Positions 5,760-9,255 of a DNA stretch of 52,207 bases are shown here, piece by piece. The position numbers were made by a program, and so were the translations under genes. The first letter of the stretch is position 1. Every line of letters starts with the position of its first letter. The notes under the pieces are model-generated. The model made no database searches and had not been told where the DNA came from. It saw nothing but the letters and a program-made list of their open reading frames with translations. Source of the DNA: Polyangiaceae bacterium. GTDB taxonomy: Bacteria > Myxococcota_A > Polyangia > Polyangiales > Polyangiaceae. The stretch spans positions 1-52,207 of the forward strand of contig JAJDAH010000423.1 of the NCBI GenBank assembly GCA_029261965.1, in the 5' to 3' direction.

Positions 5760-6863
5760 TTGAACTCGACGACAGCAGCCCCGCGCGAGCTCGTTCGCGA
5801 GGATGGTCCGACCCGTGTGGTGTTCGGTGAGGGTTCGGCTCGCAGGCTCTCGTCCGAGCTCGACCGAATCGGCGCGCGTCGAGCACTGGTCCTAGCTACG
5901 CCGGGTCGGAGGTGCGATGCCGAAGAGTTGGCGTCGACGCTCGGCGAGCGAAGTGCCGGTGTCTTCGCCGAGGCGAAACAGCACGTGCCGGTCGAAACGG
6001 CGCGCGCTGGGCGGGACCGGGCTCGCGCGGTGCGCGCCGACTGGGTCGTTGCGTACGGTGGCGGGTCGACCGTCGGTCTCGCCAAGGCCATCGCTCTCGA
6101 GAACGACGTCGGCATCGCGTCAGTTCCAACCACCTATTCCGGGTCGGAAATGACGCCGATCTGGGGACTCACCGAAGCGGGTCGAAAACGGACCGGGAAA
6201 GACGAGCGCGTGCGCTCGCGCCTCGTGATCTACGATCCTCGACTGACCATCTCACTTCCGTTGGCGACCACCGTGACGAGCCTGTTCAACGCCATGGCCC
6301 ACGCTGTCGAAGCGCTCTATGCCGAATCTCCTTCGCCAGAAATTCTCGATTCCGCTGAGCGATCGATTCGATCCATCGCCGTCAGCTTGAGGGCGCTTCC
6401 GCGGGATCCCGAAGATGTCACGGCTCGGTCTGAGGCGTTGTACGGCGCCTATCTCGCTGGCGTTTGCCTGTCTGCGGGCGTCGCACTCCACCACAAGCTT
6501 TGCCACGTGCTTGGCGGGACGTTCGGGTTGCCGCATGCCGAAACGCACACGGTCGTGTTGCCGCACGCGGCGCGGTTCAACGCCGACGTTGCCGAACACG
6601 CCATGCGCCGACTGGCCGACTCGTTGGGGGTCACGGACGGGCCTCGGGGCCTCTTTGATCTGGCGCGGGAAACCGGAGCCCCAGCTTCACTCGAAGAGCT
6701 CGGTCTCGCCCGCGAGTCGCTCGAGCTCGCTGCCGATCTCGCCGTCGAGCAACCGTACTACAATCCCAAACCCGTCGACCGTGCCGGAGCGCTCTCGGTG
6801 CTGTCCGACGCTTTTTCCGGCCGCCCGCCCACGGAGTTCGTGTCGGGAAGTGTGAGGATATGA
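5760..6863 (+). CDS. Maleylacetate reductase (iron-containing alcohol dehydrogenase family)
   Basis: 367 residues. The fold is the group III alcohol dehydrogenase type. NAD(P)-binding GGGSTVGLAKAIALE lies at about 100-114, and PTTYSGSEMTPIWGLTE at about 123-139, which is the signature run separating maleylacetate reductases from general alcohol dehydrogenases. The metal-region histidines appear as NAMAHAVEALY, HHKLCHVLGG and LPHAETH. It reduces maleylacetate to 3-oxoadipate, the exit step of hydroxyquinol, chlorocatechol and hydroquinone degradation. The start is TTG at 5760, which keeps the conserved N-terminal TRVVFGEGS. The 3' end overlaps the dioxygenase start by ATGA. Confidence 0.9.
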   Translation: MNSTTAAPRELVREDGPTRVVFGEGSARRLSSELDRIGARRALVLATPGRRCDAEELASTLGERSAGVFAEAKQHVPVETARAGRDRARAVRADWVVAYGGGSTVGLAKAIALENDVGIASVPTTYSGSEMTPIWGLTEAGRKRTGKDERVRSRLVIYDPRLTISLPLATTVTSLFNAMAHAVEALYAESPSPEILDSAERSIRSIAVSLRALPRDPEDVTARSEALYGAYLAGVCLSAGVALHHKLCHVLGGTFGLPHAETHTVVLPHAARFNADVAEHAMRRLADSLGVTDGPRGLFDLARETGAPASLEELGLARESLELAADLAVEQPYYNPKPVDRAGALSVLSDAFSGRPPTEFVSGSVRI

Positions 6864-8167
6864 CCGAGCAAGCAACAGATAGGCGCTACTCCCGCGGCTT
6901 CGGTAACCAGCACTCGAGCGAGGCGGTCGATGGCGCGGTGCCTCGGTCGCAGAACAGTCCGCTCGAAACTCCGCTCGGCCTCTATGCGGAACAGGTGAGT
7001 GGCTCGGTTTTCGTCACGTCGCGCCAGGACGGTCTCCGCTCGTGGCTGTATCGGATTCGGCCGTCGGTGGGCCACGGTGACTTTGCTCCGCTGCCGCACG
7101 TTGGTCTCGTCGGCGACTTTCGCCCGATGGAGGTTTCCCCGAACCTTCACCGATGGAAACCGAGGATCTGGCCGGGGGATCGAGTGGATTTTCTCGATAG
7201 CCTCACGACTCTCGGGGGCTCCGGAGATGCGACGGGTGGGGCGGGTTTCGCCTTGCACCTGTACGCGGCGACCGCGGACATGCAGGATCGTTGTTTCTAC
7301 GACGTAGATGGCGATCTCTTGCTGATCGCCGAGCTCGGCCGCCTCGACATCCAGACCGAGCTCGGATGGTTGCTGCTCGGGCCGGGCGAGATCGCGATCT
7401 TGCCCCGCGGCCTGAAGTACCGGGTGACGCTGCCGGACGGCAGAGCGCGCGGCTACCTGCTCGAAGTGTTCGACGGCCCGTATCGGTTGCCCGATCGCGG
7501 CCTCATCGGTGCCAACGGCCTCGCCGACGAACGACACTTTCTGGCTCCGGTCGCGACCTACGAGGATCGCGACGTGAGCTATCGAGTCGCGGTCAAGAGT
7601 GGGGGCAAGCTCTACGAAACCACGCAAGCGCACTCTCCCTTCGATGTGGTCGGGTGGCACGGGAGCTACGCGCCGTTCAAATACGACTTGGCGATGTTCA
7701 ACGCGATGGGGACCGTCACCTTCGATCACCCCGATCCGTCGATCTTCACCGTCATCGGCTGCCCTCGGAGCGCCGGCGACGGCTCGGCGGCCGATCTGAT
7801 CGTTTTTCCGCCCCGCTGGGAAGTCGCTGAGCACACGTTTCGGCCGCCCTACTTCCATCGCAATCGAGCCACGGAAATCAACGGCGTCATTCATGGGGGT
7901 GACCCCACGAACGGCTTCGAGTCGGGGTGCACGTTTCTCACGCCTCAGTTCGCGGCGCACGGCATCGGGCCCGAGTCCGTGGAAAAGAGCATCGGCCGGA
8001 TGCAGAGGTCCCCCGAGCCGCGCCGCATTTCGGATGAGCAGCTGTGGTTTCAGTTCGAGTCCGTGTACCCCATGCAACTGACCGATTGGGCCCGTGGAGC
8101 GGTGGAGTTAGACCCCAAATTCGCCGAGATGTTTCGTGGGCACGCCAGACGCTTCGAGGCGCGCTAG
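6860..8167 (+). CDS. hmgA: Homogentisate 1,2-dioxygenase family protein
   Basis: 435 residues, the normal size. Family hallmarks are GFGNQHSSEAVDGAVP, NSPLETPLGLYAEQVSG, RSWLYRIRPS, DVVGWHGSYAPFKYD (catalytic His region) and FDHPDPSIFTV. The iron ligands are intact: the His of YFHRN, the Glu six residues on (ATEI), and the His of AAHGIGPE. The usual MSEFMGLI segment is RATEINGVIHGG and the C-terminus is divergent, so this may be a subfamily with another substrate. It opens the ring of a 1,4-dihydroxybenzene. The ATG overlaps the maleylacetate reductase stop by four bases, so the two are co-translated. The gene symbol is by family only. Confidence 0.87.
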   Translation: MTEQATDRRYSRGFGNQHSSEAVDGAVPRSQNSPLETPLGLYAEQVSGSVFVTSRQDGLRSWLYRIRPSVGHGDFAPLPHVGLVGDFRPMEVSPNLHRWKPRIWPGDRVDFLDSLTTLGGSGDATGGAGFALHLYAATADMQDRCFYDVDGDLLLIAELGRLDIQTELGWLLLGPGEIAILPRGLKYRVTLPDGRARGYLLEVFDGPYRLPDRGLIGANGLADERHFLAPVATYEDRDVSYRVAVKSGGKLYETTQAHSPFDVVGWHGSYAPFKYDLAMFNAMGTVTFDHPDPSIFTVIGCPRSAGDGSAADLIVFPPRWEVAEHTFRPPYFHRNRATEINGVIHGGDPTNGFESGCTFLTPQFAAHGIGPESVEKSIGRMQRSPEPRRISDEQLWFQFESVYPMQLTDWARGAVELDPKFAEMFRGHARRFEAR

Positions 8168-8168
8168 A

Positions 8169-8205
8169 ATGAGCCGAGGATGAGCCGAGGATGAGCCGAG
8201 GATGA
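8169..8205 (+). repeat. Tandem 11-bp repeats forming three ATGA-chained mini-ORFs
   Basis: Three exact copies of ATGAGCCGAGG (8169-8179, 8180-8190, 8191-8201) are followed by ATGAGTATCGA, the start of the next gene. Each copy encodes Met-Ser-Arg-Gly and stops at TGA, and each TGA overlaps the next ATG as ATGA (8180-8183, 8191-8194, 8202-8205). The first ATG is one base after the dioxygenase TAG (8165-8167). Each unit also carries GAGG. Ribosomes leaving the dioxygenase could therefore hop through three minimal ORFs before reaching the 135-residue protein. Confidence 0.85.
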
Positions 8206-8609
8206 GTATCGAGCGATTCGAACGGCCTGGCTTCGTGCTCGAGCCAATTCCCAGCACTCGCGTGCTGCGGCTCACTCGCAACGAAGAGCCCTTCAAGAAG
8301 GTGCAAGAGTTGGTGGGAGTGCTCGACGAGGTGGAGACGCAGCTGCGGCTCGTCGACCGCGCGCAATACGGCCTCCTCATCGACACCCGGCGTGTCATCG
8401 GGAGAACCGACCCGGGCTTCGAGCGGGCGTTTCGGCATTGGCGTGAGCGCATAGTCGGTGGATTCGCGCGCGTCGCCGTCCTCGTGCAGACTCCCGAGGG
8501 GCGAGAGCAGGCGGCCCGCCACGCCGAGGAGCTTGGCGGTCACGTTTTTGCATTCGACGACGAGGCAGCGGCCGTGGCCTGGTTGTCCGAAGTCCGAAGC
8601 TCCGCCTGA
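8202..8609 (+). CDS. Small STAS/SpoIIAA-like alpha/beta protein, function unknown
   Basis: 135 residues, cytoplasmic, without signal peptide or membrane segment. Alternating strands and helices (VLRLTRNEEPF, LVDRAQYGLLIDTRRVIG, GFARVAVLVQTPEGREQAARHAEELGGHVFAFDDEAAAVAWL) resemble the SpoIIAA/STAS-like fold seen in small myxobacterial proteins; this is a fold impression, not a firm family call. The ATG at 8202 follows the repeat chain described separately, which may couple its translation to the dioxygenase gene. It probably belongs to the maleylacetate reductase/dioxygenase transcript. Its role there is unknown. Confidence 0.75.
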   Translation: MSIERFERPGFVLEPIPSTRVLRLTRNEEPFKKVQELVGVLDEVETQLRLVDRAQYGLLIDTRRVIGRTDPGFERAFRHWRERIVGGFARVAVLVQTPEGREQAARHAEELGGHVFAFDDEAAAVAWLSEVRSSA

Positions 8610-8667: not shown

Positions 8668-9255
8668 GTGGAAATCGCCGAGCGGGATGCGGCCAACGCG
8701 GTGATTCACCTCTACCGAGGCGAGCTCGGCCGGATGACGCTCTACCGGGTGAGGCTGGACACGACCACGAACTGGGCGGTCGGAACCAGTGCAGCAATCG
8801 TGTCGTTCGGTTTAGGAAGCCAGCAGGCACCACACGTCGTGTTCGGGCTCGCGGCTTTACTGAACTTCGTATTTCTCACGATGGAGATCCGAAGATTTCG
8901 GTATTACGAAATGATTCGGCAGCGCGTTCGCATTCTCGAGAACGGCTTCTATGGGGATGTGCTCGGCGGCGCCGGCGAGGCGTGGGAGGCGCGCATGTTG
9001 GCGACGCTCAAGAACCCCGAGACGCCGATAAGCTTCCTCCAAGCCGCCAGCGTTAGGCTGCGCAGGAACTACATCTGGCTGATGCTGGCGATCTACCTGG
9101 GGTGGATCGTCAAGTTGAGCCTGGTCGGCGAGGGCCTGGTGGAAGCCGCCCGCATGGGCGGCCTCTCCGGATCCTTGGTGCTCGGCCTTTCGGCGGCGTT
9201 GTTCGTTCCGCTCGCGGCCGTCGCGTTGATGTACCGCCCCCGCGAAGAAGGCTAA
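8668..9255 (+). CDS. DUF2270 integral membrane protein
   Basis: 195 residues, starting at GTG 8668. The family run is [36 protein letters not shown], matching the DUF2270 predicted membrane proteins. It has about four hydrophobic segments in two pairs: [15 protein letters not shown] and [16 protein letters not shown], then [18 protein letters not shown] and [21 protein letters not shown]. Between them is a cytoplasmic loop with [25 protein letters not shown]. The biochemical role is unknown. Its stop codon overlaps the stop of the convergent thiolase gene (9252-9255). Confidence 0.85.

Follow-up and report, generated by a model that had tools for sequence, protein, structure and literature searches.

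An 11-bp tandem repeat forms a chain of ATGA stop-start overlaps between hmgA and the gene downstream of it in a Polyangiaceae genome

The homogentisate 1,2-dioxygenase gene (hmgA) of a Polyangiaceae bacterium is followed by a short tandem array in which each 11-bp unit opens a four-codon reading frame, and the stop codon of each frame overlaps the start codon of the next. The window analyzed here (52,207 nucleotides) is the entire contig C361 of the source genome (G000). Three exact copies of ATGAGCCGAGG are followed by ATGAGTATC from position 8202 (Table 1). Every unit reads ATG AGC CGA GGA TGA (M-S-R-G-stop), with the TGA overlapping the next ATG as ATGA. The array was reported by TRF at 8169-8206 (38 bp; period 11, 3.5 copies, 100% identity, score 76). 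Three ATGA at period 11 were found in the window as two overlapping occurrences, compared with none in 100 dinucleotide shuffles; the array is not due to chance. A sequence-only reading of this DNA had described three exact M-S-R-G-stop units chained by ATGA, the first ATG lying one base 3' of the dioxygenase stop. Both points were confirmed: the 3' end of hmgA is GCGCGC TAG (8165-8167), followed by A (8168) and the first ATG at 8169. On balance, we think it probable that slippage duplicated DNA at a tight operon junction and that the resulting array is tolerated and passively keeps the two genes coupled. No selected rheostat is implied by this reading.

Table 1. Features around the hmgA junction and arrays of similar type at other gene junctions (positions refer to the window unless another genome, contig or locus is given).
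Feature	Position	Strand	Evidence or remarks
Iron-containing alcohol dehydrogenase family gene, 367 aa	5760..6863	+	Pfam PF00465/PF25137; ORF list
hmgA, homogentisate 1,2-dioxygenase, 435 aa	6860..8167	+	Pfam HgmA_N E 3.6e-101, HgmA_C E 5.1e-36
GAGG, Shine-Dalgarno-like	8156..8159	+	inside hmgA, 9 nt 5' of first ATG
Repeat unit 1, ATGAGCCGAGG	8169..8179	+	mini-ORF 8169-8183
Repeat unit 2, identical to unit 1	8180..8190	+	mini-ORF 8180-8194; ATG without GAGG at usable distance
Repeat unit 3, identical to unit 1	8191..8201	+	mini-ORF 8191-8205; GAGG 11 nt 5' of ATG
Partial fourth copy ATGAG, start of the 135-aa gene	8202..8206	+	TRF array; GAGG 11 nt 5' of ATG
135-aa gene, probably SpoIIAA/STAS-like	8202..8609	+	starts at fourth ATGA; PF11964, Foldseek
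DUF2270 membrane protein gene, next on the same strand	8668..9255	+	Pfam PF10028 E 5.4e-57
hisB - ATGAGCGTGAA x2 (11 bp) - hisH	G050:C68 around 8144-8169 (L051/L361)		both genes Pfam-supported
methylmalonyl-CoA mutase - 17 bp x2 - MeaB	G054		both genes Pfam-supported
MoxR - 14 bp x2 - vWA (ivWA)	G050		both genes Pfam-supported
DUF1588/1592 - 14 bp x2 - DUF1501	G071		both genes Pfam-supported
11-bp array after RNase HII	G136
Array after tubulin-like gene	L148		chain begins at GTGA, 11-base spacing
Second relay in source genome: ORF - ATGACTACTGCCACGCC x2 (17 bp) - cytidylyltransferase	L350, G000:C421:8305-8342	-

Both Pfam domains of homogentisate dioxygenase were detected in HmgA; against NCBIfam TIGR01015 the protein scored 467 bits, under the 511-bit cut-off. 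The alcohol dehydrogenase gene upstream ends in a TGA (6861-6863) that overlaps the hmgA ATG as ATGA (-4, at 6860-6863). The operon holds both junction types, a plain ATGA between these two genes and a repeat-expanded one between hmgA and the 135-aa gene. It had been proposed that the array lies between two enzymes; the downstream product, however, is probably a SpoIIAA/STAS-like protein and not an enzyme. Its score against PF11964 is 22.3 bits, which fails the gathering cut-off of 25, while a paralog in the same genome (G000:C265) passes with 26.3 bits. The best Foldseek match, obtained with a low-confidence model (mean pLDDT 59.8), is 2q3l (SpoIIAA-like fold), and STAS domains are also matched. 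The 135-aa ORF is closed on its 5' side by a TGA at 8181-8183 and there is no start codon between that stop and 8202; translation therefore begins at the fourth ATG or later. Since the alignment with the paralog (57% identical) begins at residue 2, the fourth ATG is favored as the start. The assignment of this ATG to the 135-residue protein in the sequence-only reading thus stands, as it is the sole possible start at that end. A defence-system search on the genes downstream gave no match.

The anatomy of the array follows from its frame. For units that begin with ATGA and have a period p of 2 mod 3, every TGA is in frame with the ATG of the preceding copy, so that a stop-start chain arises automatically from tandem duplication. 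At p = 1 mod 3 every ORF overruns the next copy, and at p = 0 mod 3 the copies merge in frame. Eleven is 2 mod 3 and yields a relay, whereas units of 10 or 13 bp would give none. The relay had been attributed to the fact that 11 is not a multiple of three; that property is necessary, but it is insufficient, and the period must be 2 mod 3. The accompanying proposal, that gain or loss of a unit would leave both proteins unchanged, is supported, and so is the self-closing stop-start anatomy itself.

The exact units and the partial fourth copy support an origin by duplication. The most likely event is replication slippage between two ATGAG words, which would have produced a tandem duplication at the tight junction of hmgA and the SpoIIAA-like gene. 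With zero units, only 1 nt would separate the hmgA stop from the downstream start, which would have the GAGG 9 nt upstream of it and be an ordinary coupled start. The duplication would spare both proteins and convert this junction of a few bases into a gap of 34 nt between the hmgA stop and the fourth ATG, spanned by mini-ORFs. Ribosomes that end hmgA would restart at the first ATG (1 nt past the stop, with the GAGG 9 nt upstream) and would then pass from unit to unit by termination-reinitiation. Overlaps of -4 provide a known and efficient spacing for this process (PMC6728339, PMC10666635, PMC12548453), which makes the earlier suggestion of ribosome transfer by a stop-start relay plausible. 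The chain leading from mini-ORF 1 to the 135-aa gene consists of three such overlaps (ATGA); the hmgA stop itself lies at +1 nt from the first ATG. Translational coupling has been found to peak at -4 to +3 nt (PMC12548453), and in E. coli and Haloferax reporters hardly any coupling was left at a gap of ~20 nt (PMC10666635), so that the mini-ORFs could restore it; coupling across longer gaps has been reported by other studies (PMC12548453). Successive -4 restarts could span the 34-nt gap, and the relay would passively preserve coupling of hmgA to the downstream gene over a distance that otherwise weakens it. Tolerance of the array may stem from its self-closing units, each able to pass a ribosome to the next start. 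For the hmgA junction, we infer slippage, ribosome hand-over, and near-neutrality.

Fresh 30S subunits may also initiate at the fourth ATG, with weak Shine-Dalgarno (SD) contacts helping such direct starts. An alternative explanation takes this route as the principal one: the downstream gene would be initiated directly via the GAGG of the previous unit, the mini-ORFs would be incidental, and the upstream ATGs would act at most as weak decoys. The GAGG lies 11 nt from the fourth ATG with a predicted anti-SD duplex of -5.9 kcal/mol, the same as for the first ATG. However, 11 nt exceeds the usual optimum, the nearest GAGG abuts the ATG, and ribosomes exiting hmgA reach the first ATG only 1 nt past the stop. 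We regard purely direct initiation as unlikely, if the most plausible of the alternatives.

The SD geometry also bears on the possibility of a translational rheostat or contingency locus maintained by selection, in which gain or loss of units shifts the ratio of HmgA to the downstream product with the proteins unaltered. Instability is to be expected of perfect 11-bp repeats, a GAGG is present in each unit, and the predicted SD contact of the downstream ATG varies with unit number (at 9 nt with zero units, none with one, and at 11 nt with at least two). The predicted dependence is not stepwise, however. Unit number would act non-monotonically, being good at zero, poor at one, and moderate at two or more units, which speaks against the stepwise ratio suggested before. 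Furthermore, the junction is known from one genome only, with no unit-number variation in it, and the pair of hmgA and a SpoIIAA-like gene represents no known functional unit.

The distribution of the array within the source genome was assessed by pattern searches and in a 348-kb sample. The 16-mer ATGAGCCGAGGATGAG, which spans a unit junction, was found at a single locus in the whole 9.6-Mb genome. Within the 348-kb sample, a GCTG microsatellite excepted, the hmgA array is the sole perfect array with at least three copies whose period exceeds 8 and is not divisible by three. In the same 348 kb, the period was ~11 in 4 of 8 good tandem arrays with a period not a multiple of three, a hint of frequent 11-bp duplication in this genome. 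An artefact of the draft assembly could be suspected from the number of contigs (480) and from a genus without a second genome for comparison, but the 38-bp array is shorter than any common read and is located 8 kb inside a 52-kb contig; an artefact is extremely improbable.

Mycobacterial interspersed repetitive units (MIRUs) are dispersed, apparently mobile elements of 40-100 bp; their tandem copies vary in number between strains, with the flanking proteins unchanged. A review (PMC12548453, citing Supply et al., 1997) describes MIRUs, for example at senX3-regX3, as repeats with an ORF inside them that is coupled to the next gene through a -4 overlap, an arrangement proposed to keep the impact of an insertion on expression small. 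The sequence-only reading had considered the arrangement at hmgA as one not met described; MIRUs, however, constitute the closest precedent. As in MIRUs, the repeats are located at an operon junction and each short ORF is coupled onward by a -4 overlap (ATGA at three junctions here). In contrast to MIRUs, the hmgA unit is 11 bp long, codes for four residues, occurs at a single place in the genome, and gives no indication of being mobile. In how it works the array resembles a MIRU, yet it does not belong to that class. The functional likeness (PMC12548453) could speak for a mobile or dispersed MIRU-like repeat family that inserted at the start codon; however, the unit occurs nowhere else in the genome, and the arrays found elsewhere are made of unrelated units with differing periods, so such an insertion seems very improbable.

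A literature search on tandem repeats and translational coupling yielded nothing beyond MIRUs. Three further systems share some features with the array. ATGA-coupled (-4) gene pairs (PMC6728339, PMC10666635) have the same stop/start overlap and proposed ribosome hand-over, but normally with one junction between two genes, whereas the hmgA array has four starts in series with four-codon ORFs between them. In ribosome-delivering short upstream ORFs, both natural and engineered (PMC12548453), the stop of the short ORF likewise overlaps the start of the main gene; such ORFs are normally single, in contrast to the tandem series behind another gene seen here. In Beggiatoaceae, 169 sets of TAACTGA heptamer repeats have been found 5' of start codons and a translational role has been proposed for them (PMC4679880). 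Like the hmgA array, they are short direct repeats placed just 5' of start codons, but they consist of one heptamer that provides stops but no ATG, and they form no stop-start chain.

The hmgA/SpoIIAA-like gene pair was absent from the 59 genomes searched, and scanning GTDB contigs for HmgA turned up a single relative (52%); these searches found the pair in no other genome. No ATGA chain followed the hmgA stop at the four relative loci with a readable stop. There was no second genome of the source genus among those compared.

Arrays of the same type recur at other operon junctions. A sample of 184 genomes of the order was searched for three equally spaced ATGA. The pattern was present in 38 genomes at period 8, 30 at period 10, 44 at period 11, 24 at period 13, 62 at period 14 (heptamer microsatellites included), 35 at period 16, and 40 at period 17. 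Many of these arrays sit away from gene starts. Several, however, are located exactly between Pfam-supported genes: the upstream gene stops within the first ATGA, and the last ATGA serves as the downstream start (Table 1). The source genome itself contains a second relay. There the first ATGA holds the stop of a 260-codon ORF, and two 17-bp units (M-T-T-A-T-P-stop) precede the cytidylyltransferase gene. These related arrays are most likely tolerated DNA duplications that let the ribosome step across the gap. An identical relay in two genomes (G038 and G181) was considered as evidence of conservation, but it is uninformative, as the region is ~99% identical between them.

The origin of an array can be traced at hisB-hisH. 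Among 24 hisB-hisH loci with a recognizable hisH (G050 itself included), a plain -4 NTGA overlap was found in 20, a TGATG overlap in 2, a longer gap in 1, and an array only in G050. In G050 neither the C-terminus of hisB (TKGTLTE) nor the start of hisH is disrupted, and both extra units copy the ATGAGCG start found in its family. Given the plain overlap at 20 of 24 loci, the G050 array is a recent 11-base tandem duplication at an ATGA junction that left both proteins intact. Similarly, genus mates of G136 lack its 11-bp array after RNase HII. The absence of these two arrays from relatives argues against a selected rheostat. The G050 junction and its plain-overlap relatives represent a natural experiment on reinitiation: if hisH expression is still normal, either reinitiation survives several steps or direct initiation replaces it. 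More generally, natural chains of -4-linked four-codon ORFs offer ready-made tests of how many successive termination-reinitiations ribosomes manage, and slippage where genes overlap can widen the space between them with the operon unbroken.

Selection for the relay phase was not demonstrable under fair controls. Arrays of p = 2 mod 3 were compared with those of p = 1 mod 3. An apparent excess of relay-phase arrays at coding starts (37/117 vs. 9/85, P = 0.0004) was lost once the other permitted start of the p = 1 mod 3 arrays was counted; with fair counting, 37/117 and 20/85 arrays ended at a coding start (P = 0.27). For repeat-type arrays the counts were 19/68 and 7/48 (P = 0.11). An excess of upstream ATGA before coding starts at p = 2 mod 3 (28 vs. 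8) proved to be mostly internal in-frame Met, and 5 vs. 8 were left after filtering. Junction arrays with genes on both sides appeared biased under GC3 criteria (6/68 at p = 2 mod 3 vs. 0/48 at p = 1 mod 3, P = 0.04), but this bias fails as a sign of relay selection under a plain ORF-length criterion (6/68 vs. 4/48), and Pfam-supported phase-1 examples exist. One such non-relay array, 13 bp x2, occupies a real junction between extensin-like and OmpH genes (L274), which indicates that relay phase is not required at junctions. Period-11 repeat-type arrays do end at a coding start unusually often (9 of 19), a post hoc observation that would favor a rheostat; however, neither comparison gives a significant phase bias at gene starts, and we consider a selected rheostat at hmgA distinctly unlikely. 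The broader idea, that in these bacteria tandem duplication at ATGA junctions recurrently makes relays in which unit number tunes downstream output with the proteins intact (a frame-neutral, repeat-based tuning through mini-ORFs), is hardly likely either.

Some ATGA arrays were observed outside gene junctions. In the source genome, a 14-bp array of the ATGATCGATTTTCG type (L264, G000:C234:17814-17859) has three relay-forming units in noncoding DNA; it was ruled out as a gene-start relay, as there is no gene start at that position. At another locus (L136, G173:C624:9039-9119), eight ATGA follow a strict 11-base spacing in diverged units, the last one without a clear long gene after it. In one genome (G076), the ATGA pattern of period 13 was matched 148 times over both strands. 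The matches include long ATGACCGAGTCCG and ATGAGCGGGTCCG arrays and look like a lineage-specific burst of 13-bp repeats.
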